Virus record (IMG/VR): IMGVR_UViG_3300045999_011519
Coordinates: 1 to 30,971 of that record
Reading direction: 5' to 3' (one strand)
Source: a virus
Length of the DNA: 30,971 nt
Part shown: piece after piece, positions 4,135-24,384 of the stretch
Layout: each line of letters begins with the position of its first letter
How positions within the stretch are numbered: the first letter of the stretch is position 1
Translations under genes and position numbers: made by a program
Notes under the pieces: generated by a model
Told to the model about the DNA's origin: nothing
Database searches by the model: none
Seen by the model: only the letters and a program-made list of their open reading frames with translations

Positions 4135-5049
4135 ATGGGATTAGTAGATAGAAATAAATTAGAAAAGCCTAATATAGAGATCTCTCACTATTTAGGTGTG
4201 GTCATAGACAATAAGGATCCGGAGTTTAAAGGTAGAGCTAAGGTGAGAGTTTTTGGTGTCTTCGATGAACTAGAAGATGGTGATCTCCCATGGGCTTATC
4301 AAAGATTTGAGCAAAGCTACGGGCTTGGTGGAGGATCTGGTAGAATGTCTGTGCCTAAACTTGGCTCTGTTGTTCATGTGCAATTTAATAATGGAAACTA
4401 TTATAGTCCAGAATATAAAGCAGCACAGGAATTGGCTCCAGATCTAATCGATGAGATAAGAGCTAGTTATGAAGGGGCGCACTCTATAATATACGACGGA
4501 ATAGAAAGGCTTAAGATGTACTATACTGTTGAAAAGGGATTAGTTATAGACTTAAAAGAATCTAAGATTATAATAAGAAACGATAACTCCATACTTATTA
4601 CACATGCGGATGACACTGCTTCTATAGAACTGAAGGGCGGAAAGATAACTAAGTATGCAGATCAGGAAATAGAAAACACCGCAATAACAAGGATCAAACA
4701 CAGTTCTGAGGAAGTTTGGATGGATGGCAAAACAACTAATCTTGGACATTCTCCTCTTTTTTCTGCTGTTTGTGCAGAGCCATTATTTGACTTTCTTAAA
4801 AAATTGGCTATATCAGTAGATAGTAAAATGCCAGCTACACCAGGAGTTAATTCAACATTAGCTTCTAGCTTCGAACAATTAGCAACAAGTCAGACAGTTA
4901 GAGTAACAAGAGAAAATAGTCCAGATTTCCCTGTTGTTCCTGCTAATGCGGATTCTCCTGTTGGTATACCTAACACAGGTACATCAGGAACATCTGGTAC
5001 TTCCGGAACATCTGGTACTTCCGGAACCAGTGGAATAACGGGAGTGTAA
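4135..5049 (+). CDS. Baseplate central spike, gp5-like OB-fold protein
   Basis: 304 aa. Residues 18-95 match the OB-fold domain shared by T4 gp5, phage gpV and VgrG: HYLGVVIDNKDPEFKGRAKVRVFG, then LPWA (51-54), then SVPKLGSVVHVQFNNGNYYSPEY. That domain docks on the hub and forms the base of the puncturing spike. Residues about 130-200 are short alternating strands (KIIIRNDNSILIT, SIELKGGKI, EVWMDGKTTNLG) that could form a small beta-helix. Unlike T4 gp5 there is no lysozyme domain. The C-terminus is a (GTS)n run at about 282-300 followed by GITGV. The ATG lies 19 nt after the previous stop, behind ATCTTGGTATAATTTAAA and without a Shine-Dalgarno. The TAA is one nucleotide before the next ATG, suggesting coupled translation. 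Confidence 0.8.
   Translation: MGLVDRNKLEKPNIEISHYLGVVIDNKDPEFKGRAKVRVFGVFDELEDGDLPWAYQRFEQSYGLGGGSGRMSVPKLGSVVHVQFNNGNYYSPEYKAAQELAPDLIDEIRASYEGAHSIIYDGIERLKMYYTVEKGLVIDLKESKIIIRNDNSILITHADDTASIELKGGKITKYADQEIENTAITRIKHSSEEVWMDGKTTNLGHSPLFSAVCAEPLFDFLKKLAISVDSKMPATPGVNSTLASSFEQLATSQTVRVTRENSPDFPVVPANADSPVGIPNTGTSGTSGTSGTSGTSGTSGITGV
4975..5034 (+). repeat. GTS-coding microsatellite with 18-bp tandem unit
   Basis: The end of the spike gene encodes about six consecutive Gly-Thr-Ser triplets. Within it GGAACATCTGGTACTTCC occurs twice in perfect tandem (4987-5004 and 5005-5022), followed by a partial third copy. The perfect 18-bp duplication looks recent, and repeat number could change by strand slippage without breaking the frame. 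Confidence 0.85.
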
Positions 5050-5050
5050 T

Positions 5051-8000
5051 ATGGAAAGTATAGAATCTAGGATAGACAGTCTATTAGGGAAAGACTTTTC
5101 CAAAATGTCTACTGAGGAGATACTCAGTACTATATCAGGAGGGCAGAGCTTTAATATTCCCTATGAAGATTTACAATCCAAGGAGGGATTTGAAAAGGAG
5201 CTAGATAAAAGTCAGAAGGAGGTAGATAACGTAATAAAAAGCTTAAGTCCGCAAAAGCCTCCCATTCCTATGAATGAAATAGAGGATCTTGCCTGTAAAT
5301 ATGAGGGAGATGATCTCTACAGTCGAATTATAATAGAGACTATAAAAAGAGAAGATTCTAATTTATATAATGATCTTTTAAATTCTGATGAATACAAAAA
5401 AAATTCTCCTATATCTGAAAATGATTTAGGGGTTACTGTTAGTGGAGGTGATTTAGGATTTTCTAAAAAAATTCCCTCTGATGGAATAACAAAATATCTA
5501 AAGAGAAAGGATTCGAAGTTTCTTGAAAAAATAAACGAGAAGATATTTGATAATATGGACCCTTTGATATTAGGTAAGCCTTCTAACTCAGGAACTAGAA
5601 AAAAAAGAGCTCTTAACATTTTAGGATTTGAAATTCCTTTAGAGTTTATAATGAACGGAACTCAAATAGTTCACGTAAAAATAGGAGGTGATGAAATAGA
5701 TCTAAACTCCGCTTTAGATAAAATAAATAGTATCTTAAAAAAGCAGAACGAGAATTCTAAGCCTTGTGATTTTGATGGAATAGACGAAAATACATCCTCT
5801 GAAAGAATTGATGGATTTGATGCTAATTTTTTTCCTGATGGGGATGATCCAATAGCAGATGATGAGTGTTTACCAGGAATACCCGAAGATCCTATAACAG
5901 GAGATCCTATTCTAACTAAGAATAACTTTGATGAGTCGTTGGATGAATTTTGTGATCCGCCGGTTTATGAATTTAAAAGAGACGAGGTACCGGATCCTGT
6001 ACCTCCTACTGTTGATCCTAAAGATATAGATGCTTGTTTGTCATCTGCCTTAGATAAGAGCAAAAAACTAGAAGAAGATATTAAAGTACTAGCTAGATGG
6101 CAAATGATAGAAAGAAATCTAGAGGAGATACTATATCACTATGAGCCAATATACGAGTATCAGAAATCTCTAGCAGAAAACTGGAGGAATCGCGTTCCTG
6201 TAAACGAGGGAGGAGATCCATCAGATTTTGATATAGGAATTCAAATTTTGACATATAGAGATCAGTTAGAAGCATATAAAAAAGAGCTTAAAGATCAAAC
6301 AACAAAATACGAGAATGATAAATCTTTGTTTTTACAAAACAATAATATATTTACCGAGGACTTATTTATTCTTAGCGTTTATGACACGGAGCTTAGTTCT
6401 CCTGAGCTGGAAGTTCTTTTTAATAATCAGATAAATGCTAATAAATCGCCTATAACATATGATGAATCCACACAATCGTGGCCAGTTTCCGGTGGGGTTT
6501 CTAAATTTATTGAGAATGTAGAAGACATAAGAAACATTATGATCGAGAGTAACTTTATTGATCTAATACAATCCAAAATAGATGATACACAATCTCTTCT
6601 AAACGCTTCTATTCAAACGCTTTCACAGAAAAGAGGAAGTCAAGTTACCATCGCCGATGTTGAAAAATCTTTCTTACCCTCCAGCACAGTTTCTTCAGAT
6701 CTTTATGGGCAAGGCAACGGCTCGTTGGATATAAACGATAGGGTTTTTAAAAGCCCAGCCCAGTTATTTCTGAGCACTGAATCTTATGCTTATGATTCAT
6801 ATGGATATGAATTCTTAGAAGCACTTAAGAAATTCTCCGTTAGATTTAATACAAATTTTAATAAACCCTTGGGCGAGTTAGAGTTTAAACTTTCTTTTGT
6901 TACTGACTACGGATCTCCTCTTCCATACAAGAAAGTAAAAAAACCTTCTAAGATAACCTTTAGCGGATCTAGTACAGAGCCATTAAAAGAAGCTAATGAA
7001 CCTGATGAGGAGAAAATAAAAATAGGTAATGAGTATGCTGGCAACGGAGGATTGCTAAGTGGATATTTACCAGAGTATTTAAGGTCTTATCAATTTATAA
7101 AGATTAATAACATTAAGACTGGTTTTCCTGATGTTGCAAAATTCTATGATTTTATAGAGAAAATAATAAAAACTAGTGACTCAAAAGAAAGTATTGTAGA
7201 GAAAATTGTAGAGGACAGAGGAACATTATATGGACAGTTAATAGAGAAATCCTCCTCAACTTGGCTTTTCTTTAGCGCAGAAGAAAGAGGAGATAATGAC
7301 TCTAGGGATCCTGCAAAAAGCAGACCCTCTAGTTTCACACAAGACGGAGAACCAACGCCGGTATTTACTGATTTTTATAGTAATTTCAAAACTAAGTGGA
7401 ACCAGAAATACCTACAAAACAAGCAGGCTTATATAACTCCCGCTCTTGAAGATTTAAAAACAAAAGCTAGAAGAGCAGGTGAAGGATTAGGAAAAACCCT
7501 ACCGACTTCAGACGTTATAGGAATTAGAATATTTGAGAACTACTCTGACATAACTAAAAAATATGAAAATTTAAAAGAAGCTTTGTTGCTTGCCTCTCAA
7601 AAAATCGCTGAGATTAGTGAATCAATTAGCCCAGAAAACATAGAGAAAAGATTTAGTGACATTAAATGTGCGGGAGCACAGTCACCACCCGATGCTGGGG
7701 ATAAAGAGAACTGCCCACCTGTTTGTTGTGGAGAAGCGGGGTCTGATTTTAAAACTGATAATTTTTTACTATCTTCCCCACCAAGCTCAGATTGCCCAAC
7801 GATGTTTCAAAGATGTTGGTGGAAGCAATTTTCTAAGGATCTAACCAAGGTTGGTATGTTGCCATATCCTAATGGTCTTCCTCCAATTGAAGATCCTAAA
7901 TATTTTTTAACCCCTGGACCAGCTGTTAGATTGGGTTTAAAATATTGGCCCGTAGGATATCTTCCGCCTGCTTTTATTCCTATACCTTTTCCGAATCCGA

Positions 8001-10147
8001 TAGACGGTAATCCTTATATAAGGGTTCCCCTTCCAATGATATGGACTATAATTCCCCCTATTCTTATACCTCTTCCTTTTAATTTGGGAATGCTTGTGAT
8101 ATTTATACCTTTCATAGGAGGATTTATGCCTACTCCATTAGTTTATCTAAAAGAATTTATCACTGGTAGTTCTTTATTTTTAACCGGAATTAGAGGACCT
8201 AGATTTATTCCAAGAAAATCTGACCCGGATACGAAAGATCCATTTGAAAAGATCAAGCAGATTCTATCTTTTGGTGTACCTGATAAGTTAATACCTCTTC
8301 CCGGATTTGGCCTGGATGATTTAGATTCTTCAGCTAGGGTTTTAACTGATATAAAAAGTAACTTAACTAAAATATTTGATAGTGTTCCCCCTCCTGGAAA
8401 CATGCAGCAGGTAAGAGACATACAAGAAAAAGAAAGGGAGCTTAAAAGAAAAATAAGGGAAAAGGAAAAGGATTATAAAAAGAAGAGTGCTTTATTAGAT
8501 GAGAATCCCCCAGATTTATCTGCTGAAGAGGAGCAATTAAAAGCTTTGGTTAATCAAAGAAAGGATGCACTAAAAACCACTATAAAAGATTATCTTAAAA
8601 AAAGTATACCAGATCCAAAGTCTATACATTTTCCTAAAGATAAGGACAAATTAAAGGTTGATATACCAGGGATTGTGAAATCATTAAGAATCCTTAAAGA
8701 AATGAGAGCTAGCCTTGTCCCAGTGGACTGTCCTAGCTTTGTAAACTTTAAGGATGAAATGAGGGAGGTTCTAAAACTAATGAAAATAGTTTGTCCTCCT
8801 ATTTATGCAATAGAAAATTTTCAGGTAGCTAATTCGAGTAAAATATTTTTAAGAAACAATAAGGACCCTAGATTGATGACGGATAATGAATTTAATATCC
8901 TAGTTAAAGAGATAAGAGGAGCTTCCCTTGTGATAGCTAAAGTGATTCTCTGGGGAAATAATTTTTCTGTAATAAAAAAAGTCAGGGATGGATCATTCTC
9001 TTTGGTCGAAAAAAGTGAATTTGAAGGAGCTTTTAAATTCCCTGAAATAAAAATAACTAACTCTGCACCTAAAGCGCTCAACTTTGCTAGAAAAAAGAAC
9101 CCCATTATAGAAGCTATGAAGTTTCGTATAATGGAAGGCATGGCTAACATAGAATATTCAAGAGAGGATTTTTCTAGATATGTTAGATATGACGGAGAAA
9201 ATCCAATATTAGTTATAAGGGTAAAGGATTTAAAAATATTAGTTTCTAAAAAGATAGGATTAAGTAAGGCAGGTCCATTTGATCCAGTAAGACCATTAGA
9301 TCAAGAAGAGCCTTTAATATCCAATTTTCCTTTTCCTAAGGGGCCTTTATCTTGCCTCAGTTCACTTAATGGAGGATTTGGTAATGCTGTTGCTGCTTTT
9401 GAGCTACCCACAGTTTTTCCGCCCAAGCAAGATCAGTTAGGACAAATCCCTGGATTAGGTGGCATCATTCAAGTTAGTATACCTGGGTCTGTTATAAAAG
9501 ATTTTTTATCGGCTTCACTTGAAAAATCATTAGATGCTGGGATATTAGAAAAAACATTTCCAGAGATTGATGATGTAAATTCCCCGAAGTTTTTAAATAT
9601 GGATCCTTCAGATATACAAAAAATGACTAAGAATTTAGTTACTGGAGCCATAGATCCTTCGTCTAAAGACGTACCGCCTTTTTTAAATGTGATTAAAACC
9701 CCAGTGATTCCTAAAGCAAGACCCACTGATATGATAGAGCAAGCTTTAATTGGTTTAGGAGCTCCTCCACCAGCTAGGATAGTTTATAGTTTGTTCTGGG
9801 CATATTTTAAGAGCTTACCTAAAACACCTCTGGCTGATTCTATTATGCTCACTAAAGTAACTGCTTCCGCTGAAATTTTATCTAAGATCCCTTGGCCTCT
9901 TGCAGTACTAATAGGTAGGAATATATTAAACATTATAAACCCAATAGCAATGAATGATGACCATCCAGTTTGGAGAAGAATGAGTTTAAAGAATACATAC
10001 TATGTTGTTTACTTGGATGAATTCCTAAGGAGCGCAGCGGATGTGTCGGGACTTTTTAAATTTTTCTTAGGCTCAGCAGATCCTGTGTATCCAATACCAG
10101 AATTACCAACTGAACTAAAAGAAACTAAAAATGTAAAAAAATACTAA
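5051..10147 (+). CDS. Giant virion protein (1698 aa) with Pro-rich hydrophobic core
   Basis: Function not recognised. The N-terminal 330 residues are acidic and Asp/Pro-rich. Residues about 333-427 are helical and charged (LDKSKKLEEDIKVLARWQM...). A Cys cluster follows at about 872-921 (CPPVCC and flanking Cys, ending in CWWKQ). Residues about 935-1045 form a striking Pro-rich hydrophobic stretch with segments PPAFIPIPFPNPI, MIWTIIPPILIPLPF and LGMLVIFIPFIGGFM, which could contact or insert into a membrane. A coiled coil lies at about 1118-1185 (IQEKERELKRKIREKEKDY). Another hydrophobic segment, WPLAVLIGRNILNIINPIAM, starts near 1613. The gene starts one nucleotide after the spike stop (TAATATGG), so it is probably co-translated with the spike. 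A hub-associated or tape-measure-like role is possible, but the high proline content argues against one long helix. Confidence 0.6.
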   Translation: MESIESRIDSLLGKDFSKMSTEEILSTISGGQSFNIPYEDLQSKEGFEKELDKSQKEVDNVIKSLSPQKPPIPMNEIEDLACKYEGDDLYSRIIIETIKREDSNLYNDLLNSDEYKKNSPISENDLGVTVSGGDLGFSKKIPSDGITKYLKRKDSKFLEKINEKIFDNMDPLILGKPSNSGTRKKRALNILGFEIPLEFIMNGTQIVHVKIGGDEIDLNSALDKINSILKKQNENSKPCDFDGIDENTSSERIDGFDANFFPDGDDPIADDECLPGIPEDPITGDPILTKNNFDESLDEFCDPPVYEFKRDEVPDPVPPTVDPKDIDACLSSALDKSKKLEEDIKVLARWQMIERNLEEILYHYEPIYEYQKSLAENWRNRVPVNEGGDPSDFDIGIQILTYRDQLEAYKKELKDQTTKYENDKSLFLQNNNIFTEDLFILSVYDTELSSPELEVLFNNQINANKSPITYDESTQSWPVSGGVSKFIENVEDIRNIMIESNFIDLIQSKIDDTQSLLNASIQTLSQKRGSQVTIADVEKSFLPSSTVSSDLYGQGNGSLDINDRVFKSPAQLFLSTESYAYDSYGYEFLEALKKFSVRFNTNFNKPLGELEFKLSFVTDYGSPLPYKKVKKPSKITFSGSSTEPLKEANEPDEEKIKIGNEYAGNGGLLSGYLPEYLRSYQFIKINNIKTGFPDVAKFYDFIEKIIKTSDSKESIVEKIVEDRGTLYGQLIEKSSSTWLFFSAEERGDNDSRDPAKSRPSSFTQDGEPTPVFTDFYSNFKTKWNQKYLQNKQAYITPALEDLKTKARRAGEGLGKTLPTSDVIGIRIFENYSDITKKYENLKEALLLASQKIAEISESISPENIEKRFSDIKCAGAQSPPDAGDKENCPPVCCGEAGSDFKTDNFLLSSPPSSDCPTMFQRCWWKQFSKDLTKVGMLPYPNGLPPIEDPKYFLTPGPAVRLGLKYWPVGYLPPAFIPIPFPNPIDGNPYIRVPLPMIWTIIPPILIPLPFNLGMLVIFIPFIGGFMPTPLVYLKEFITGSSLFLTGIRGPRFIPRKSDPDTKDPFEKIKQILSFGVPDKLIPLPGFGLDDLDSSARVLTDIKSNLTKIFDSVPPPGNMQQVRDIQEKERELKRKIREKEKDYKKKSALLDENPPDLSAEEEQLKALVNQRKDALKTTIKDYLKKSIPDPKSIHFPKDKDKLKVDIPGIVKSLRILKEMRASLVPVDCPSFVNFKDEMREVLKLMKIVCPPIYAIENFQVANSSKIFLRNNKDPRLMTDNEFNILVKEIRGASLVIAKVILWGNNFSVIKKVRDGSFSLVEKSEFEGAFKFPEIKITNSAPKALNFARKKNPIIEAMKFRIMEGMANIEYSREDFSRYVRYDGENPILVIRVKDLKILVSKKIGLSKAGPFDPVRPLDQEEPLISNFPFPKGPLSCLSSLNGGFGNAVAAFELPTVFPPKQDQLGQIPGLGGIIQVSIPGSVIKDFLSASLEKSLDAGILEKTFPEIDDVNSPKFLNMDPSDIQKMTKNLVTGAIDPSSKDVPPFLNVIKTPVIPKARPTDMIEQALIGLGAPPPARIVYSLFWAYFKSLPKTPLADSIMLTKVTASAEILSKIPWPLAVLIGRNILNIINPIAMNDDHPVWRRMSLKNTYYVVYLDEFLRSAADVSGLFKFFLGSADPVYPIPELPTELKETKNVKKY

Positions 10148-10203
10148 TTTCTTGGAAATTTTAATCCAATTTTATACTAGAAAACTATACAAACCCAAAT
10201 AAT
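10148..10203 (+). promoter_or_regulatory. 56-nt spacer before the S1 gene, small hairpin
   Basis: This is the longest + strand spacer within the hub/wedge block. It contains TCTTGG, an inverted repeat TTGGA (10152-10156) / TCCAA (10165-10169) with an 8-nt AT loop, then TTTTAT, and a second small dyad TAG-AAAA-CTA. It could hold a weak terminator, a promoter or a processing site. The 5-bp stem is too short for a firm call. Confidence 0.3.
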
Positions 10204-11313
10204 ATGAAAAGCAAAAATTTTAGTTGTTTCGAATACGAACTTACTGAAAGAGAAAAACTACAATCGATGTATGACCAGACGTTCCCAGAGGAGTCTAAAA
10301 ATATATCAGGTAAGGATATACAAAATAACACGTCAGAAAAAATCGTTATCACATCTGTTGATAACGAGAAAGGGGTCGCTTTAGGAGAGACCTCTTTTGG
10401 ACAGACCATTATAATAGACACCAAGAAGGAAGAGAAGAGTATGAGAAAACTCGGATACCCTTCGATGGAGGTTTCTTATGGGCAGATCTTGGATGTTGTA
10501 ATTACAAAAGATGCAGGAGGTTCCTTTAATGGCTCTGTTTCTGCTGGATACGAAAAAGCTCTTAAGAGAGAACTACACAGATCTATTAAAGAAGAAGATT
10601 GTGCATTTAAAGTTAGAGTTAAGAATGTTTGTAACGGAGGATTCATGGTGGATCTATCCGGTATAGAGTGTTTCTTACCTGGAAGCTTAGCTGCTGCAAA
10701 CAGAATAATGAACTTTGCTGATTATGTAGGAAGAGACCTAAATGTTATGGTTGAGGTCTATGATCAGAAGCGTGACATCTTTGTTGTTTCATTTAAGAAG
10801 TATTTGAGAAAAATAATAGACAAAGAAGTTCAGAATCTATCTTTTTCTACTAAATATGAGGGAACAGTTACAGGAGCTTCTAATGGCGGAGTTTTTGTTG
10901 AGTGGAACGAAATTTACACTGGTATAATTCCAATGGATGATTCTAATAGAGAATCATTATCAGTCTATAATGCTGGTGACGCTGTGGAATTCTATGTATT
11001 AGACATAAAAAATCCTCAAAGAATAACCTTATCAGTTACTCAGCCTAGTGAAAAAATGAAAAATGTCCAAGAGATGAAGAATACTTCATCAGAAGTTTTG
11101 GGGGAAAATACCGATTTGAAAATATATAAAGGAGAGGTTACTAAAATTAAAACCTTCGGTGTTTTTGTTAAAATGGAAAACGGATTAACTGGACTTATCG
11201 AAAAAGAAAGATTAGTAGGCTCTATTAAAGAATATGAGGTTGGAGAATCGGTTGATTTTTCTATCTTGAGTGTAGACAGTTCTACTCTCAAAATACAATT
11301 AATAGAAAAATAA
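10204..11313 (+). CDS. S1-domain RNA-binding protein (ribosomal protein S1-like)
   Basis: 369 aa with at least three tandem S1/OB RNA-binding domains, at about residues 130-205, 212-280 and 305-369. Each shows the S1 layout: an initial strand, a turn with G-G-F/V or F-G-V-F-V, a G-I/L-x-P or GLIE segment, a V-G-x-x-V/L-x-x-x-V strand and a final basic or R-I-x-L-S-V strand. The clearest is domain 3 (YKGEVTKIKTFGVFVKMENG ... TGLIEKERL ... YEVGESVDFSIL). Residues about 45-115 may be a fourth, degenerate OB domain. It is shorter than cellular S1 (four to six domains) and has a charged N-terminal tail. S1 bridges mRNA to the 30S subunit, so a phage copy could steer ribosomes to phage mRNA, or serve another RNA-binding role. 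It ends in TAA, same frame as the next gene. Confidence 0.85.
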   Translation: MKSKNFSCFEYELTEREKLQSMYDQTFPEESKNISGKDIQNNTSEKIVITSVDNEKGVALGETSFGQTIIIDTKKEEKSMRKLGYPSMEVSYGQILDVVITKDAGGSFNGSVSAGYEKALKRELHRSIKEEDCAFKVRVKNVCNGGFMVDLSGIECFLPGSLAAANRIMNFADYVGRDLNVMVEVYDQKRDIFVVSFKKYLRKIIDKEVQNLSFSTKYEGTVTGASNGGVFVEWNEIYTGIIPMDDSNRESLSVYNAGDAVEFYVLDIKNPQRITLSVTQPSEKMKNVQEMKNTSSEVLGENTDLKIYKGEVTKIKTFGVFVKMENGLTGLIEKERLVGSIKEYEVGESVDFSILSVDSSTLKIQLIEK

Positions 11314-11316
11314 AAA

Positions 11317-12759
11317 TTGGCTAATTTACTCAGTAATGATTTTTTCTACTCTGCTAAATTGGGTTTTGAATTTGAGTTCTATAGCAACTTAAACAGAAAC
11401 GAAATAGCATATGATCTGGGTAAAGTACTCGGTAAGAAAGTACTTGTCTTTAAAAAGTACCACTCCAATTTTAAACCAACTAAGGATATATTTAAGTTAG
11501 AGCCAGATTATTCTGGTGGATCTAAAATGGTAGAGTTTATTACTGGACCGCTTCCTTATTTTGAAGCGATAGTAATACTAATAAAAACCCTTAAGTGGAT
11601 AGACGAGAATGGTTACACAGATAAAAAATGTGCTTTCCAATTTGGTATGGATATAGACACTTCCATTTACCCTGATGTTCCTCCTATGTCACAAATGAAC
11701 ATACTCAAGTTTATCCTTGGGTTTGATGAAAATGTTGTCTATAAAAGATTCCCTGATAGAATGGGATCGCTATATGCTAAGTCTATAAAAAGAATAGTAC
11801 CATCCAATAAATTTGTTGATCCTAGTAACATCTCATTTATTGACAAGAATCTTTTTGATGTTCCGTTAGAGAAGAATATGGGGATTAATTTCCTGAAGCT
11901 TCCTGATGGATATTTTGAAGTTAGGTATCTAGGTGGGAAGGATTATCAGAAAAGGTACAATGCCTTAAAGGAAGTTATTGATTATATTATCACATACACC
12001 GTAGATGTTTTGAGATTTAATCAAGGATTTACTGAAAATGATATTAAAATCCTTAAACTTTTCCTAAGCGAAATATACAAGAATTCATCCACCTTTATAG
12101 ATGCTGAAACCTTTCAAAAGAACTACCCGCATTTAAATGTGATGATTGACCTTAGGTCAGATCCACAAATACTAAAGGCGTTCTTCCTTAATGTAAGGGA
12201 AGTTCTATATGATTTAATTGTGGATAACAATATAAAGGAGGGTATAATTAATTACGATAGTAATCTTGGAAAATTCCAAATCAAGGATGTTAAAACACAA
12301 AGAGCTTATCTATTAAAGGATTATGATATACTCGAAAGTGAAATATCTGGAAATATTTTAAACTGTAGGATTTTTACTTCCAAGCTTAATGATTGTACAA
12401 TTGAGGAGTGTGATTTAATCACGAATAACGAGATAAATCGATCTAAGGTAATGGTATCAGATCTTTACTTCACAAACACAGTTCACGACACTTATATAGA
12501 CAATAAGGACAAAGAAATAAACTGCGAAGTCTTTGGTGGAATAATTAGATCTGGCTTCATTGGAAAACTTGCTACAATCTCGCCTGAAACAGAAATAGTT
12601 AAAGATGGAGATGATGATAAGAAATTAAAAGGAAGTTCCAAGAAACAGCAATTCCCTAATAGAAACGAAGGAGAAGCACTTTCTAAGCCAGTGAGATTTG
12701 GAAATAATAATTCTAAGCCTTCTGGTATTCCTGGGATTAACTTCAAATCAAATAATTAA
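11317..12759 (+). CDS. Amidoligase-like protein (glutamine-synthetase-type fold), TTG start
   Basis: 480 aa. The N-terminal 230 residues resemble the GS-like amidoligase superfamily, ATP-dependent enzymes that join carboxyl to amino groups. Visible parts are GFEFEF (16-21), EPD..GGSKMVEFITGPLPY (62-81), a following helix, CAFQFGMDID (105-114) and YFEVRYLGG (199-207, Glu201 and Arg203). The usual HxH position appears as FQF, so catalysis may be altered. Residues about 345-410 are strand-turn repeats (NCRIFTSKLNDCTIEECDLI) reminiscent of a beta-solenoid. The tail is low-complexity, ending PSGIPGINFKSNN. The start must be TTG at 11317: an in-frame stop lies 3 nt upstream and the next Met (71) would delete the first motif. 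The substrate is unknown. Confidence 0.5.
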   Translation: MANLLSNDFFYSAKLGFEFEFYSNLNRNEIAYDLGKVLGKKVLVFKKYHSNFKPTKDIFKLEPDYSGGSKMVEFITGPLPYFEAIVILIKTLKWIDENGYTDKKCAFQFGMDIDTSIYPDVPPMSQMNILKFILGFDENVVYKRFPDRMGSLYAKSIKRIVPSNKFVDPSNISFIDKNLFDVPLEKNMGINFLKLPDGYFEVRYLGGKDYQKRYNALKEVIDYIITYTVDVLRFNQGFTENDIKILKLFLSEIYKNSSTFIDAETFQKNYPHLNVMIDLRSDPQILKAFFLNVREVLYDLIVDNNIKEGIINYDSNLGKFQIKDVKTQRAYLLKDYDILESEISGNILNCRIFTSKLNDCTIEECDLITNNEINRSKVMVSDLYFTNTVHDTYIDNKDKEINCEVFGGIIRSGFIGKLATISPETEIVKDGDDDKKLKGSSKKQQFPNRNEGEALSKPVRFGNNNSKPSGIPGINFKSNN

Positions 12760-13582: not shown

Positions 13583-13954
13583 ATGGCAAGATTTTCTGAA
13601 ATTTATCCAAGGAATCCAGATGATCCTAATTACAAAGAGGGACTTTTACATACCGATGATGAGGTTGAGATCCTTATAGGTATGATAAAAAACTGTATGC
13701 TTTCTAGACCAGGAGAGGTTCTAGGAGATCCTTATTTTGGTATAGATCTGGAGGGTCTTATTTTTGATCTTGAGGTGGATGAAAAAACATTAAATAGAGC
13801 CATAGAATTGCACTTAATAACATATGTGCCTCTTGCTTATTCTCTTTTTAGTGTTGATTTTAAGATTGGATTTTTTAAAGGAGAAACAAGAGATGCTTGT
13901 GTTATAGATTTTGCAATAAAAGGTAACCCTATATTGGGAATTAAAATATTATAA
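13583..13954 (+). CDS. 25: Baseplate wedge subunit gp25 (GPW/gp25 family)
   Basis: 123 aa, close to T4 gp25 (132 aa). It carries the GPW/gp25 signature: LLHTDDEVEILIGMIKNCM (21-39), then S-R-P-G-E (41-45), then DPYFGIDLEGLIFD (49-62), and a final alpha/beta part ending in FAIKG. The conserved Arg-Pro-Gly-Glu and the 'GI.L..LIF' segment are both present. In T4, gp25 binds gp6 in the inner baseplate and acts as a sheath-initiation point. The next gene is gp6-like and starts one nucleotide after the stop (TAATATGG), matching that partnership. The 38-nt spacer upstream carries ATCCTTGGAATATATAG and no Shine-Dalgarno. Confidence 0.9.
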   Translation: MARFSEIYPRNPDDPNYKEGLLHTDDEVEILIGMIKNCMLSRPGEVLGDPYFGIDLEGLIFDLEVDEKTLNRAIELHLITYVPLAYSLFSVDFKIGFFKGETRDACVIDFAIKGNPILGIKIL

Positions 13955-13955
13955 T

Positions 13956-15653
13956 ATGGATTTATTATCGAAAAATAGAGCAAAGATATCTGATTTATTA
14001 GCACAGACTTTTGAGCTAATACAGGCAAGATATGGAATGTCTAATCAGCTTTTTACTGTTGCCTCTGTTTGGGGACAGATAATATTTGTTCTAGATAACC
14101 TTTCACAGTTTATATTGTTCTTTATAGAAGATTCAATAACAGAATTAAACATAAACACTGCAACAAGGGAATCATCCATATATGGGTTAGCAGCTTTAGC
14201 TGGACACAATCCCACTAGAGCTATATCTGCTAAAGGTGAGGTTGTTATTAAATGGAACGGTAAAGGATTTGAAGATATTGGAGGTAGTGCAGTTCTTATA
14301 CCTAAGAATTCTGAGATCAAATGTGTAAATAATGGTAAAACATACCTTCTTAAATTTCCACAAGAGTACACGAGATTAAACCTTGACGGAACTTCTAAAC
14401 TTATTTGCTCGGTAGTCGAAGGAACCCTTAATGTCAACCAATACACGGGAAATGGAGGAAAGTTACAGAGCTTTAATATTTCATCTCGTGGTACTTCAAG
14501 TATAGAAAATTTTGAGATCTATGTTAAAGTTAATGGAGTAGAGTGGAAAGCATACGATTCTTTATATGATATCCCTAGAAACGGACTAGGATATATGGTA
14601 AAGAGTTCACTTATATCGGGTATCGATCTTTTCTTTGGAACTAGTGATTTTGGTTTACCTCCTGCTCCTGGATCTATTATAGAGGTAACTTATCTTGAAT
14701 CTTCTGGTTCTTCTGGTAATATTCTAGTAGATGATTCATCACAAGCTATATTTAGATTCGATTCAGATGGAACGGATTTATTTGGGAACGGAGTAACTTT
14801 AGCAGACGTTCTACAAATATCTTGTACAATTGCTCCGCAGATGGGAGCAAACCAAGAGCCAGTAGATTTAACAAGACTTATAGCACCTAAAACATCTAGA
14901 AGTTTTGTTCTTGCAAATCCAACAAATTACATAACTTTCTTTGAAAAGTTTGGACAGTTTTCTATAATAGAAGCTTTTACTACCTTCGATGATCAATACA
15001 TTGATGATGACAACGTCATATATTTAATACTTGTACCAAATATCCAATTAACCCTGAAGAGCAATGAGACATATTTTGATATCCCTGTTTCTAGATTTAA
15101 ACTAACACAGCCCCAAAGAGATAGAATAAATCAACTTCTAGATGAGAGCGGGCAAAAGATAGTTACGACGGAGGTTAAAATATTAGATCCGGTAATAAAA
15201 AAATATGTAGTTAATATTTCCATTAGTATTTTTGAAGGAAACGATCCTGATACTATAAAATCACAGATAGTAAACACTATGAGTAACTACTTCTTAAATA
15301 TTAGAAGGAGAGATAAAATACCAAGATCGGATTTGATCGCAGCAGTTGAGGAAATAGAGGGAGTTGATTCAGTAGCACTATATTTTGTTGGTGAAGAAAA
15401 TGAAGCTGCAAAAGCACAAAATCCAAATTCACCCGAAATCGGATTCGATGAGTTTGGTGATATAGTAATGGGTAAGGATGAGGTTGTTATTATCTCAGGA
15501 GGATGGGAAGATAGGAACGGGATATTCTATGATCTTGGAGCAGGAATGACTACCCTTTCATCTATTAATATAGATGTTAGAGCTATAGTTCCTTACACAT
15601 ATAATTCTAGAGTTAATAATATAATGAAAAGCTCGCTAAAAACAGGAAACTAA
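13956..15653 (+). CDS. 6: Baseplate wedge protein, gp6-like (baseplate J-like)
   Basis: 565 aa, near the length of T4 gp6 (660 aa). The N-terminal 100 residues carry the family hallmark: a helix with an aromatic hydrophobic stretch (FILFFIEDSITELNI), then TATRESSIYGLAALAGHNPT (68-87) and RAISAKGEVVI, as in gp6/J proteins ('ta..rsv..la.l.G..p..a..A.G'). A middle beta-rich domain follows. The C-terminal region (VEEIEGVDSVALYFVGEENEA) resembles the last alpha/beta domain of baseplate J proteins. In T4 two gp6 copies clamp gp7 and gp25 to form each wedge core. It follows gp25 at one nucleotide and is followed at one nucleotide by a small gene, all likely co-translated. Confidence 0.85.
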   Translation: MDLLSKNRAKISDLLAQTFELIQARYGMSNQLFTVASVWGQIIFVLDNLSQFILFFIEDSITELNINTATRESSIYGLAALAGHNPTRAISAKGEVVIKWNGKGFEDIGGSAVLIPKNSEIKCVNNGKTYLLKFPQEYTRLNLDGTSKLICSVVEGTLNVNQYTGNGGKLQSFNISSRGTSSIENFEIYVKVNGVEWKAYDSLYDIPRNGLGYMVKSSLISGIDLFFGTSDFGLPPAPGSIIEVTYLESSGSSGNILVDDSSQAIFRFDSDGTDLFGNGVTLADVLQISCTIAPQMGANQEPVDLTRLIAPKTSRSFVLANPTNYITFFEKFGQFSIIEAFTTFDDQYIDDDNVIYLILVPNIQLTLKSNETYFDIPVSRFKLTQPQRDRINQLLDESGQKIVTTEVKILDPVIKKYVVNISISIFEGNDPDTIKSQIVNTMSNYFLNIRRRDKIPRSDLIAAVEEIEGVDSVALYFVGEENEAAKAQNPNSPEIGFDEFGDIVMGKDEVVIISGGWEDRNGIFYDLGAGMTTLSSINIDVRAIVPYTYNSRVNNIMKSSLKTGN

Positions 15654-21900: not shown

Positions 21901-22687
21901 AAGTGATTCCGAAGAGAATGTTTATATAACAGGGTCATACACTTCCCCAGCTTACTTTTCTCCTGAAGAGATAGAATCCAGAGGAGGTACTGATATTTAT
22001 TTGACAAAGTTTAATAAGGATGGATTACTTGTTGATATAGTAACTGCAGGTGGGATGAATAACGACTCAGGTGCGGATTTAGTTTTAGATAGTGAAGAAA
22101 ATATTTATATAACGGGATACTTTGAAGGAGAATCTGAATTTTCTCCTTATGTTGTTCTTTCCCCTCCAGGAGGTAGCTTAGATGCTTTCTTAGGTAAGAT
22201 ACCTAAACAAAGATTCCAGACCGGTTTAAAAATAGGAGGGGTTCAATCATGGTTGGGCTCACATTCTTGGTCTTGGAGAGAGGATAAATTCTACCAGGAG
22301 GAATTTGAAATACCGATAGCAACAACAATATTTATAAACCCTATAGATTCATTAATACCTGGTAAGAAGGATCATATATGGACTTTAAGAGACACTGAGA
22401 GCAATAACGTTATTGTTAAAATCAGAAAAACTCCTTATTTTATATGGACCTTCGTAACACCAGGATTCTATACTATATCTTGTGAATTACAAGACGCAAA
22501 TGGTAACATATATGAAACTGAGCACAAGGGCAAAATAAGAGTAATAGATCACAAGACTCCTTTTGCTGGCGACTTAACACCTGAGGTTGTTAATCCGAGT
22601 GACTATCTGCTTAGATCAATATACTACGATAGGAAGGATTTTGGATTTCCTCCGTACTCAAGGTTTGATATACAAGCTGATGTTTAA
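15902..22687 (+). CDS. Giant baseplate wedge protein, gp7-like, fused to two beta-propellers
   Basis: 2261 aa, twice T4 gp7 (1032 aa). Residues 1-480 look like the wedge core, with a motif around 250-270 (SLFNAIKFFGYYDLRVKEYW) found in gp7-like proteins of large myophages. About 700-777 is PKD/Ig-like (YEIEWTIYKDD, NYNVKCRVWDT). About 1205-1440 carries propeller repeats: GIAWDADGDIWVTG, CIKIDRNDDKWIGINN, LYLWIATDNGLSRFNG-type and SIEIDKLGHKWIGTSS. About 1673-2097 is a second set with SBBP-like repeats: TVDNEGDIIAIGDFTG, VITDENGNIYVVCD, CIDPKGHVLVTGSFEG, VESDSEENVYITGSY and VLDSEENIYITGYFEG. About 2140-2213 is a second PKD-like domain. The propellers could recognise glycans or proteins at the cell surface (inference). 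It follows the 81-aa gene by one nucleotide and meets phoH tail to tail. Confidence 0.7.
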   Translation: MAFQNLLFFNKKGDQYNFKWNGDYWEGSVLFEKVSERLFEIEHIFVIEKFLDLSSDIKYGFPHSYGVSPGSPVWRTRWESNYDGRTDVSSTIYTYELGVDGELDAPILVKATNVEFYPEVVVGDTISSPEGIIISSDINPASMQINIALNSNTEGIYDRTLILEDYTDPNNPVTIMSINFHGEVEGEDSRLAVILGNFGRSFNPEDALIVRDSDIKEEFPDYEIINKKRKELLLTGETIFPYLGSYKSLFNAIKFFGYYDLRVKEYWLNIKKDDADTLTPLQQNQTILNQLSQPNIEGQSKLELISSLIKDENEGKFKQVEVYGKNKDGTFGLKKQLDKIFPSKSYKKTSLFGLFYDINKVVEDQDEDQYGYPIVEDSFLFSPEEVLIKLFGLKERLKNDYLPLNARIIDITGEGIYFNIYKTRGWTDSVDISEIKGGIEVDFSVFPNEGYVEDLRPFYIKPNQSGILYPAVNGAEPGISYYGNTVDPYSFFQKYPKSAIPDLESAIVSFYDDQKAGVMPKFLGDGDYDPPGYKLFSDGSDYVFPAGCPIIIKNNTFNLSWEEISGSWTSFDTTITTTNLQIASYTSTASSNPGGNLQTATSTDTFTLPTTFPSNLTINIGTGNNWFSTTSPQIILVRIESADNPGNLVLGYCSSGDYNTVTGDLYVEFMYTRGSGEYSNWKVTPTNLGFSSYVFDYYENFVHSNGFYSWDRIPYLDFYEIEWTIYKDDDDKPYFFQITGDLPGLDTLVHFLPYDGNYNVKCRVWDTLNSISLGIKRGVVKVAKRGIELNTITRFRESETYNWDNMPLKWDSYFSQWLFPVENTNKIIDISQFIQSYPEYSNNFEEGQQCEVLTKLPEIKSTSIFDVGVDEISISTIASNYNGSGYDLATVTTLTPHGYTSGSNVWIYDSTGAPYGQYPITVTGTTTFQIPEIEVTPISGGYVYGSGTVKIIADSVEIASCNFQGDLNATCSLLYSSINSSPINPKYKVINLIDSSVNGYKTFTLQAPNNSGALWNGKPVIIQVTGSILASPSSTTFSGGFNETEAYVPYDFGSLPKKEMKYWGTKRLSWDTFEDFAFEKAYAHTWDMYDYHNDWLGGFDLYSLQYGDRVRVSGDSLGMVFTETDSPGNNYLDLSEAADQLNDSIETNIDRFDYIVRGFSELPNNFYINSNPISPDLSTNPGPKNITSSFYKIPAYSPVLFYPTGIAWDADGDIWVTGEDVVKFDGLNYTTYDSSNSVMPGVSTPTNCIKIDRNDDKWIGINNNLVPLVKINDKDPTKSIAYSVSDFIDNSGNPVSPITASSINAIEINPQSGDVFAAFTCNGSPSFDGLLFYDSHAKSWHLYTTNNSELPSDNIRDLKLEHYGINKWYLWIATDNGLSRFNGVDFKNYNMNNSGLPDSDLYSIEIDKLGHKWIGTSSSLVYWDHTRWAVWNNGTNPEISLGRFANITETGNANIWFTIDVGTSPGNSELYFFDGYFFTKVLYRNDGVTLINPCNGLNGKVLLSAPWKTIKNGETTYPKNLIFATEDGEIGKLDYVIPHIHASSKIADLKGWDFIYHETSTPLPSIEYIYNSGVGASQLGFNFIVGPFNDNITLNSDYTRPVMPNVDRYSWYKPVWQRYSIDRLKDQFPSLNLDHVFLYAPLRDIITGKATKEPYWKNSQIERIAQKKSRDLFENFEWVITLGNSNPDQGVKVTVDNEGDIIAIGDFTGTIFMGEVNNIGTQDVYLNTLDQGVYVAKYNKGGVLQWARAIGSTSPQGPIYGRSVITDENGNIYVVCDNSLTGFIEINKYNSDGDSLNIINIPVTPSQFIGDIKADKYENVYICGGFEGTLTLGAFSLTSVGQDAGFVAKLDSTLSFVWAKQLSDSNYSKANEIAILKEEYLYLTGVFDTQVNLGTIQLTGVGNPDMFVAKLYTGDGTCLWADSFAYNSSTSFSDTSVCIDPKGHVLVTGSFEGTIEIEGTQISSFPGTTDIFLIKLLSTGKLMWMKMCGGASGDTAHDVESDSEENVYITGSYTSPAYFSPEEIESRGGTDIYLTKFNKDGLLVDIVTAGGMNNDSGADLVLDSEENIYITGYFEGESEFSPYVVLSPPGGSLDAFLGKIPKQRFQTGLKIGGVQSWLGSHSWSWREDKFYQEEFEIPIATTIFINPIDSLIPGKKDHIWTLRDTESNNVIVKIRKTPYFIWTFVTPGFYTISCELQDANGNIYETEHKGKIRVIDHKTPFAGDLTPEVVNPSDYLLRSIYYDRKDFGFPPYSRFDIQADV

Positions 22688-23355
22688 CTAGTATATTCTC
22701 TATAAACATCTAGTATTTCTGGAACTATAGGATGTCTATGGTTTTTCTTGAGTGTAATAACTTTAACCCCACTAACTCTAGATGCTATAGTATTAAGAAA
22801 GTCCAATCCCGATTCTTTCTTATTTTTTAAATCTATCTGCGATGTATCACCACATATGATAAGTTTGGAGTTAACACCAAGTCTACCAAGAACCATTTCC
22901 ATCTGACTCATGGTTACGTTTTGTGCCTCGTCAACTATAACGCATGAGTTTACTAAAGTTCTACCTCTCATAAAAGGAAAAGGAAGTATTTCTATTATAC
23001 CCTCAGTGATAAGTTTTTGTACCTTATCCTTGTCATAGATCATTTCTAAGTTAGCATAAATAGGTGCTAACCATGGATCCATTTTCTCTCTAAGATCGCC
23101 TGGAAGAAATCCTATATCTTCTTTAGCAACCGTTGGTCTTGTTATCACCAATCTTTCAATCTCTCGGTTAAAAAGAAGATCAAGAGCTATCTGAACTGCT
23201 AATAAGGTTTTACCAGATCCTGCAGCTCCTTTTAAAACACTGACTGGTGTCTCAAGGATTATATTCTTTGCCTCCTTTTGTTCCTCGTTTAATGTGAGTT
23301 TAAATTTGATTGGGTTTTTAGGTTTTCTCTTTTGAGTCCAATTACTTCCTGTCAT
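22684..23355 (-). CDS. phoH: PhoH-family P-loop ATPase
   Basis: 223 aa, essentially the PhoH ATPase domain, an RNA-helicase-like P-loop NTPase common in large phages whose role there is unsettled (phosphate starvation or RNA metabolism have been proposed). Visible motifs are LNEEQKEA, Walker A GAAGSGKT (43-50), ITRPTVAKEDIGFLPG (71-86), Walker B with VDEAQN (141-146), GDTSQID (169-175) and the terminal Arg motif NHRHP (205-209). The start ATG is preceded on its own strand by an A-rich run and an 8-bp dyad about 18 nt upstream. It is the only minus-strand gene in the window. Its stop shares the TTAA at 22684-22687 with the stop of the wedge gene. It separates two + strand structural blocks and probably has its own promoter. 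Confidence 0.95.
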   Translation of the reverse strand: MTGSNWTQKRKPKNPIKFKLTLNEEQKEAKNIILETPVSVLKGAAGSGKTLLAVQIALDLLFNREIERLVITRPTVAKEDIGFLPGDLREKMDPWLAPIYANLEMIYDKDKVQKLITEGIIEILPFPFMRGRTLVNSCVIVDEAQNVTMSQMEMVLGRLGVNSKLIICGDTSQIDLKNKKESGLDFLNTIASRVSGVKVITLKKNHRHPIVPEILDVYREYTS

Positions 23356-23466
23356 AAGATTTTTTTTATTTTAAGAAACATATTCGATGTTTCTCTGTTT
23401 AATAATTAACCCTGTCTTTTCTTAAAGTATTAAGTACAGGATATATATCAAAAAAAGAAAAATCAA
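23356..23466. promoter_or_regulatory. Divergent intergenic region between phoH and the fibre block
   Basis: 111 nt, the largest non-coding gap. It should hold a leftward promoter for phoH and a rightward promoter for the 23467 gene. Seen in it: a perfect 8-bp dyad at 23374-23394 next to phoH, the AT-rich TTAATAATTAA, and CTTAAAGTATTAAGTA followed by GATATATATC and AAAAAAAGAAAAATCAA before the rightward ATG. The word AAGTATTAA recurs in the spacer before the 24399 gene. No exact Bacteroidetes -7 TAnnTTTG or T4 late TATAAATA box is found, so the promoters are inferred from layout. Confidence 0.45.
23374..23394. promoter_or_regulatory. Perfect 8-bp dyad (AGAAACAT / ATGTTTCT)
   Basis: The arms AGAAACAT and ATGTTTCT are exact reverse complements around the 5-nt loop ATTCG. 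It lies 18 nt upstream of the phoH ATG, so it would be in the phoH leader or overlap its promoter. It could be an operator for a dimeric repressor or an RNA hairpin controlling phoH translation. No U-tract follows directly on the + strand, so a standard terminator is unlikely in that direction. Confidence 0.4.
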
Positions 23467-24384
23467 ATGGCAATTACAATTACCGAAATCCTTGGAACCG
23501 ATTCTATTTCCGGATCAAGATTAACTATTAATGCTAACTTTTTGCTATTAGAGAATGCCTATAATGATCTAGAAAACACTTTTAATATTAATGTTTTAAC
23601 TGGATCACTAGACGTTTCTAACGCTTCGAGTGGACAAATTAAATCTAAATCAATGCTAACAAATAGCTTGGTTATGCCTGCTTCAGGCTCTCCAACCATA
23701 CAAATTTATGGAACAGGAGCCAGTGGAGGATCTTTAATTGCCTCGAATACTGTAGCGGCAGCAACTGGTATATTCTCTAACGTGATTCAGGTTAATAGTT
23801 TTGGAGCATCTGGCCCCGCTACATTGGGAGCAACAGCAACGTTTCAAGGAACTGTTAGCTTAGAAGGTAGAACGAGCATTGGAGCTTCTGGTAATTTTGT
23901 TAACACGAATAGAAAAGCAAGCGTTGGTTCAACAACAGCTTTTCCTTCAGCTCCTGGAGCTGGTGTTACTGGAACATATTCAGTACCTTATCAATTAACA
24001 CTAACCGAAAATGTTATCTATATACAATCAGACTTTGTTTCGAGTGCGCCTGCTGACACTGCAAACGCAACTGGATTTTTCTTTTACGCAACAACTGGCG
24101 CTGGAGCAACTTCTTCTGCTATCCCTGCGGGTTACACTGTGACATTAATCGACACCGCAACTAGTACTGGACTAATCTCTACTGGTGTGACTGGTCCTTC
24201 GCCATATTACTATACAGGATTTTCAACTGGTGACGGAGCATACTCCGATCCATCTATTCAAACTTCAGGTAACCCATATAAGTCTTCTATTACTCTTATG
24301 TGGGAACCTAGAATAGATCAATCAGCTGGTACTCAAAAAGGATCTTGGGTGGTTGTAAATGACACTCAAGGATTCACATACTAA
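23467..24384 (+). CDS. Fibre-like virion protein rich in Gly/Ala/Ser/Thr
   Basis: 305 aa. The N-terminus (SISGSRLTINANFLLLENAYNDLENTFNI) is like the 'SR..iN.NF..L...i' start seen in many fibre or whisker proteins of large phages, where a helical bundle anchors the trimer. Residues about 60-170 have low-complexity short strands rich in G, A, S and T (GASGPATLGATATFQGTVSL), consistent with a triple-stranded beta fibre. The C-terminal half is a compact beta-rich domain with aromatic residues, ending GSWVVVNDTQGFTY, suitable as a tip. No chaperone or catalytic motif is visible. It opens the second + strand block after the divergent region, with ATG behind AAAGAAAAATCAA. Whether it sits on the tail, neck or head cannot be told. 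Confidence 0.6.
   Translation: MAITITEILGTDSISGSRLTINANFLLLENAYNDLENTFNINVLTGSLDVSNASSGQIKSKSMLTNSLVMPASGSPTIQIYGTGASGGSLIASNTVAAATGIFSNVIQVNSFGASGPATLGATATFQGTVSLEGRTSIGASGNFVNTNRKASVGSTTAFPSAPGAGVTGTYSVPYQLTLTENVIYIQSDFVSSAPADTANATGFFFYATTGAGATSSAIPAGYTVTLIDTATSTGLISTGVTGPSPYYYTGFSTGDGAYSDPSIQTSGNPYKSSITLMWEPRIDQSAGTQKGSWVVVNDTQGFTY

Follow-up and report, generated by a model that had tools for sequence, protein, structure and literature searches.

The gene at positions 10204..11313 (+) of a 30,971-nt stretch of viral DNA (IMG/VR record IMGVR_UViG_3300045999_011519, referred to below at its full length as the window) codes for a homologue of ribosomal protein bS1, that is, for more than a protein with loose S1 domains. 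It is a single open frame of 369 residues belonging to a family of phage proteins, here called phage S1, which in the lineage of the window occupies a nearly fixed slot among baseplate genes. We computed its S1 identity, its colinearity with domains D1-D4 of bS1, its fold, the residues of its putative docking end, its conservation and its placement in a separate clade, as well as the absence of Shine-Dalgarno (SD) enrichment at the starts of its relatives. We consider it fairly probable that this four-domain bS1-like phage factor docks on the 30S subunit and favours phage mRNA.

The first-pass annotation, made from the sequence only, had claimed at least three S1/OB domains in this protein and proposed a profile search and a structure prediction, and both bear the claim out. 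The Pfam S1 domain is found with an E-value of 2.8e-19 (69.7 bits for a cut-off of 22) in three separate stretches of the ORF, and the AlphaFold2 model (mean pLDDT 83, pTM 0.57, 37 aligned sequences) consists of an N-terminal helix at residues 13-26 (10240..10281, +), whose sequence aligns with that of the helix by which bS1 docks on uS2, and of four OB folds starting at about residues 43, 133, 215 and 306, all on the plus strand; pLDDT drops below 50 at residues 31-35. OB domain 1 (about residues 43-117; 10330..10554) has strands from residue 43 in the model and is colinear with D1 of bS1; the three PF00575 matches in a near relative (L019) cover domains 2-4 and not this one. OB domain 2 (about residues 133-204; 10600..10815) carries the signature FLPGSLAAAN and is backed by the model, by invariant alignment columns and by a structural match to D1-D2 of bS1. 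OB domain 3 (about residues 215-280; 10846..11043) rests on the model and the alignment, with NGGVF and GIIP in the window and FGVF and GMIH in distant members, and OB domain 4 (about residues 306-369; 11119..11310), also present in the model, contains the best Pfam S1 stretch (307-366). The gene is under purifying selection, with dN/dS values of 0.045-0.141 in seven of eight comparisons with the window (the eighth was not computable), values that are approximate because dS is high; the constraint is somewhat weaker than that on the hub and gp6 genes.

Homology extends well beyond the presence of the domain. Scored against a profile built from 11 phage proteins, E. coli bS1 reaches a whole-sequence E-value of 5e-52, and positions 39-353 of the profile are colinear with its residues 16-345 (i-Evalue 2.2e-35), a span that we take, from the E. 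coli domain limits, to be D1 to D4. When the predicted structure was compared with known ones, the top Foldseek matches were bS1 proteins in 30S mRNA-delivery complexes. D1-D2 of ribosome-bound bS1 superimpose on model residues 24-202 (Z 14.3, rmsd 4.3, 170 aligned); the full-length match to bS1 has an rmsd of 17.8, because the domain orientations differ between the two. The NCBIfam rpsA models match phage S1 far below their cut-off (TIGR00717, 88.7 bits vs 577), and six S1 stretches are found in one Bacteroidota bS1 (L136) vs four OB folds in phage S1.

The N-terminal end deserves particular attention. According to the available text of PMC10123108, the N-terminal helix of E. coli bS1 stacks on uS2 via Phe5 and Phe9, with Lys43 reaching into a pocket of uS2. 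In our joint alignment, the helix of the window S1 has L and Y at the positions of F5 and F9; across the phage rows, the F5 position is Leu in 34 of 44 and hydrophobic in all 44, and the F9 position is Tyr in 38 of 44. Leu and Tyr are found at these positions in all five Bacteroidota bS1 rows, and Tyr at the F9 position in none of the 11 other reference rows (10 bacterial ones and that of phage MaAM05). As far as the alignment tells, the residues that pair with the bS1 docking helix in it are thus of the Bacteroidota type. A second motif, F[DNS]W near the N-terminus, is present in 17 of 44 phage rows, for 0.2 expected by shuffling, namely in all 15 sister-clade rows and both Lak-type rows, as well as in 5/5 Bacteroidota rows and 0/11 other reference rows; it is missing from the window's own clade in the 44-row alignment. 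A point against such docking is the position of Lys43 (loop 2, uS2 zinc pocket), which is Gly in the window S1 and K in just 5/44 phage rows. One has to keep in mind that the superposition of phage S1 on bS1 begins at model residue 21-24, so that the equivalence of the predicted helix to the docking helix is not confirmed by structure. Further along, the position of F120 in the mRNA pocket of E. coli OB2 is aromatic in 44/44 phage rows and Met in 5/5 Bacteroidota bS1. The S1 identity put forward in the first-pass annotation can thus be sharpened into that of a homologue of bS1 D1-D4 with a putative ribosome-docking end.

An alignment scan of IMG/VR found at least 549 stretches encoding a relative of this family, of which the best 79 loci were taken forward. 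For the tree, proteins shorter than 290 aa and near-copies (88% or more) were removed, which reduced 123 candidates to 44. In the tree of these 44 phage rows and 16 reference rows, the phage S1 proteins all fall on one side of a branch (100/100), a long branch parts their clade from the reference rows, and phage S1 does not branch among the cellular bS1 included. When IMG/VR was searched for host-type bS1 with a Bacteroidota bS1 as query, no relative came up, and the reference bS1 were therefore drawn from plasmid records and from phage records holding a bacterial rpsA; the five Bacteroidota rows are four named Bacteroidales and one faecal record, with no row from the Flavobacteriia. Records filed as phage with a bacterial-type rpsA were MT835643 (L136), OR846962 (L134), OR846668 (L135) and CAKLQH020000011 (L133), and the rpsA gene in these four is probably host DNA. 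In a collection of species genomes, a pattern scan picked up a single locus, where a MAG labelled Clostridium has a Lak-like gene on a contig of 3.4 kb; the two peptide patterns searched for came from the phage family, so that diverged cellular relatives would be missed, and "phage-only" is to be read within the limits of the pattern scan and the tree.

Relatives of the protein are also encoded by Lak phages and by five uncultured megaphage records (462-735 kb), plus a duplicate record. We presume that these five records come from Al-Shayeb et al. 2020. Sister-clade contigs reach 434 kb, and each of the 10 large records tested (141-435 kb) has one S1 copy, from which we infer that the window is probably part of a larger, jumbo-phage genome. 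Three of the megaphage records (LR745206, LR756502 and LR756504) carry one more gene with an S1 domain, whose open frame of 601-646 aa does not belong to the phage S1 family.

The neighbourhood of the gene in the window is that of a baseplate, as had been proposed from the sequence. Upstream lie a gp5-like hub gene (4135..5049, +; Phage_base_V E 3.6e-5, PHROG hub/tail-lysozyme family 7.3e-14) and a gene for a protein of 1698 aa without a clear Pfam family or assigned function (5051..10147, +), which fills the hub-S1 interval in near relatives as well. Downstream come a 480-aa gene (11317..12759, +), a 259-aa gene, a gp25-like wedge gene (13583..13954, +; a weak match to the PHROG wedge family, E 0.029) and a gp6/J-like wedge gene (13956..15653, +; PHROG 219 wedge family, E 2.6e-26). 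The 480-aa product has a predicted fold resembling glutamine synthetase or amide-bond ligases, with a beta-helix, on weak Foldseek matches (best E 1.6e-4); among known phage records, tblastn finds its gene in five uncultured megaphages and one duplicate, all of them S1 carriers. A PhoH-like gene (22684-23355, Pfam E 1.1e-64) stands on the minus strand amid the virion genes.

This gene order is the same in all 36 near relatives, as far as their contigs reach. Across 78 IMG/VR loci (L050-L127), the 480-aa gene is the next recognised gene after S1 in 77, the contig of the other one (L096) ending at S1, and the hub lies upstream of S1 in 71; in the other seven, S1 is at most 3.9 kb from the contig end. 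We also ran the test in reverse, looking for loci by gp6 alone in two scans and requiring at least 7.5 kb upstream; the scans gave 124 loci, from which four already in the set were left out and 26 were too short, leaving 94. S1 is present in 93 of these 94 loci, many of which are on the same contigs as those already found via S1. Within these 93, the 480-aa gene follows S1 within 700 nt in 92 (1654 nt in the other one) and the hub is upstream in 75; no hub was found in the other 18, where the locus begins 4.4-5.0 kb before S1. The slot of S1 among baseplate genes is therefore nearly fixed in the window's lineage.

Such a slot could mean that the protein is a baseplate or tail part, a structural OB-fold protein resembling S1 by chance, and the order of genes in the lineage favours this, as does the 462-kb record LR756500, in which S1 lies between homologues of the hub and of the 480-aa gene (g6). 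The four-domain colinearity with bS1 argues against a chance resemblance, and a baseplate protein would be expected to stay with baseplate genes everywhere and to be needed by every homologous baseplate. In Lak MK250027, S1 is at about 187 kb and gp6 at about 356 kb; in Lak MK250024, the neighbours of S1 are Thg1, DnaB and RNA ligase genes. In LR745206 and LR756502, S1 is downstream of homologues of the last two genes of the window, and in LR756504, sheath and SSB genes are found some kilobases upstream of it; gp6 is more than 100 kb from S1 in Lak, LR745206, LR756501, LR756502 and LR756504. Conversely, gp6 is common to the window and to five cultured phages of 168-235 kb, Tenacibaculum pT24 and PTm1, Flavobacterium MaF61, Chryseobacterium MA9V-1, and PAU, whose deposited hosts are Bacteroidota except for that of PAU (Sphingomonas). 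An S1 domain was found in 0/5 of them vs 15/15 other records in the same search, and a match to the family profile in 0/5 vs 5/5 comparison records; PTm5 and MA9V-2, which also share gp6 and were outside the S1-profile search, gave no tblastn match with the window S1 protein. The one gp6-found locus of the 94 that is devoid of S1, L259, has the hub followed by a 213-aa gene and then the 480-aa gene; it has hub, g6, g7, gp25 and gp6 and no S1 within its 77-kb contig, beyond which S1 could lie. A baseplate that works without S1, together with an S1 kept away from the baseplate, argues for a function of its own rather than a structural role. S1 is probably not a baseplate part, the structural explanation is in our view very unlikely, and a tie of the protein to the tail itself finds no support.

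How the genes of these phages start bears on any role in translation. The first-pass annotation had them without SD sequences, which holds among the relatives, with an SD 4-mer at 13 of 219 starts vs 12.1 in shuffles (by gene, 0/28 for S1 and 4/10 for the 1698-aa gene), and less well for the window by itself, where 2 of 12 starts vs 0.7 in shuffles is slightly above chance; the E. coli control gave 12/22 vs 4.2. Regions upstream of the starts are A-rich. S1 is preceded by a leader of 56 nt between ORF ends (10148..10203, +), the longest gap in the run 1539-22687. The sister clade has GATATATA there, 24-53 nt before S1 and also before gp25, in 14/37 S1 rows, 14/26 gp25 rows and 1/198 other starts. 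In 19 sister-clade loci, 38 copies are on the plus strand and one on the minus strand, and 32 of the 38 stand before S1 or gp25; as base composition predicts 20.1 plus-strand copies, and as some of the 19 loci are near-copies, the argument for a promoter rests on place and strand. In the sister clade, GATATATA looks like a promoter element from which a transcription unit would start with S1, and its strand-specific copies before S1 and gp25 in loci L098-L127 are listed as a candidate promoter. In L259 (6660-7400), the element now stands directly before the 480-aa gene. The exact GATATATA is missing from the window's S1 leader, where TATACTA at 10173 may be its counterpart. The two matches in the window are the two strands of one palindromic place, at 23440, ahead of the gene at 23467; this being the chance level, GATATATA was rejected as a promoter of the window, and we restrict the claim of a promoter-like element to the sister clade.

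In the reading that we favour, phage S1 would use its N-terminal helix and OB1-OB2 to dock on the 30S subunit at the bS1 site (uS2), where it would displace or supplement the six-domain bS1 of the host, while OB2-OB4 would hold the A-rich, SD-less leaders of the phage and feed them into the mRNA channel; expressed from a transcription unit among virion genes, the protein would tilt ribosomes towards phage messages at the time at which structural proteins are required. What we infer here is the host group, the binding to the ribosome, the displacement of bS1, the selectivity for phage mRNA and the late timing, a bias of ribosomes towards phage messages being the most likely role. This reading finds support in published work: in the available text of PMC9976891, F. 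johnsoniae bS1 raised initiation about 2-fold on one SD-less mRNA and had little effect on the rpsU mRNA, and in that of PMC3296737, D1 of E. coli S1 is by itself enough to displace native S1 and to inhibit bulk translation.

The same displacement feeds the main rival, a shut-off decoy, that is, a truncated competitor at the bS1 site that would mainly block host translation while phage messages depend less on bS1. Phage S1 is indeed devoid of the D5-D6 of six-domain Bacteroidota bS1, and E. coli D1 or D1-D2 fragments, in displacing S1, inhibit growth as well as bulk translation (PMC3296737). A pure decoy needs D1 alone, however, and domains 3 and 4 are retained, as is an aromatic residue at the F120-aligned OB2 pocket position in every phage row where the Bacteroidota rows have M. 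With 403-417 aa, two Bacillota S1 proteins would by their length hold about four domains, hence a short form need not be dead; we regard the decoy as unlikely. Another alternative is translational autoregulation, phage S1 binding its own leader to set the output of S1, g6 and g7, as E. coli S1 regulates its own messenger. The length of the S1 leader fits this, and so does a TGGAAAT block in 13/37 S1 leaders vs 2/224 other starts. The leader hairpin TTGGA..TCCAA, tried as an RNA operator and kept as a possibility only, folds weakly, however (z from -0.14 to -2.98 in seven of eight leaders and +0.29 in the eighth), the conserved leader blocks are not the same in the different clades and could be promoters, and Lak as well as further megaphages retain the gene in a different setting, all of which makes autoregulation quite improbable. 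A role as cofactor of a phage or host ribonuclease or RNA chaperone has a precedent in T4 infection, where host S1 is tied to RegB activation (PMC9409239, available text), but the putative ribosome-docking end is retained, and we give this role hardly any weight.

Taken in its widest form, the reading of a ribosome-directed phage S1 becomes more tentative, and we hold it possible rather than probable. The family would be an old viral ribosomal-protein lineage shared by Lak, the 460-735 kb megaphages and a large group of Bacteroidota-type jumbo phages; its host-type helix would dock at the bS1 site, and its four domains, with an OB2 surface of their own, would turn host ribosomes, at a late stage of infection, into phage-specialised ribosomes that serve SD-less messages. 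One lineage would have made it a fixed cassette in the baseplate genes with, in the sister clade, a promoter-like element, its dose following virion production.

Bacteroidia ribosomes do not use SD pairing (PMC9976891), and a factor of this kind kept by a phage draws attention to bS1 as a place where the choice of starts may be controlled. Phage S1 may be seen as a natural four-domain variant of bS1, and the family carries a prediction, the displacement of bS1 on the 30S subunit.

A viral S1 as such is not new: in 2020, Al-Shayeb et al. described proteins with S1 domains from a small number of huge phages, noted that SD sites are rare in such phages, proposed a hijacking of initiation and noted that a true rpS1 is hard to confirm (PMC7162821, available text); Mizuno et al. 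2019 set the S1 domain aside as ambiguous (PMC6375957, available text). A term search for "S1 domain" found no mention in the jumbo-phage overview PMC7824862 or in the 2026 review PMC13282480, and we found no paper joining S1 domain, jumbo phage and baseplate in a search outside which most subscription papers lie, so that an earlier one may be in print.

Our proteins resemble the "possible rpS1" of huge phages in their S1 domains and their few SD sites; beyond the few genomes treated in the consulted text of PMC7162821, we find one clade, at least 549 IMG/VR stretches, colinearity with bS1 D1-D4, a putative docking signature and a nearly fixed slot. Family anatomy, the candidate docking signature and the fixed slot are thus what is added here, and the uncertain "possible rpS1" would become a defined family that has a candidate docking signature, its own phylogeny and S1-minus relatives in nature. 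The bS21 of Bacteroidetes huge phages, encoded beside virion genes and expressed late (Chen et al. 2022, PMC9723584, available text), is likewise a ribosomal protein of translation initiation whose gene adjoins virion genes, although it is a different protein. S1 and bS21 as a shared kit is not general: among S1-carrying records, bS21 is found in 2/31 from IMG/VR (0/6, 1/15 and 1/10, mostly fragments) and 4/7 huge-phage records. Microcystis phage PhiMa05/MaAM05 also encodes a bS1 (PMC13157829, available text), which, unlike the phage S1 family, falls among the bacterial bS1 rows of our tree, on a long branch. With Bacteroidota-type bS1 (rpsA), finally, phage S1 shares a FLPGS-type D2, the order D1, D2, D3, D4 after a helix that is predicted in phage S1, and, in the alignment, Leu and Tyr at the docking positions, together with, in the sister clade and Lak, the F[DN]W motif; it differs in having four domains instead of six, i.e., no D5-D6, and from bS1 at large in mostly lacking Lys43, in scoring far under the NCBIfam cut-offs and in forming its own clade on a long branch.
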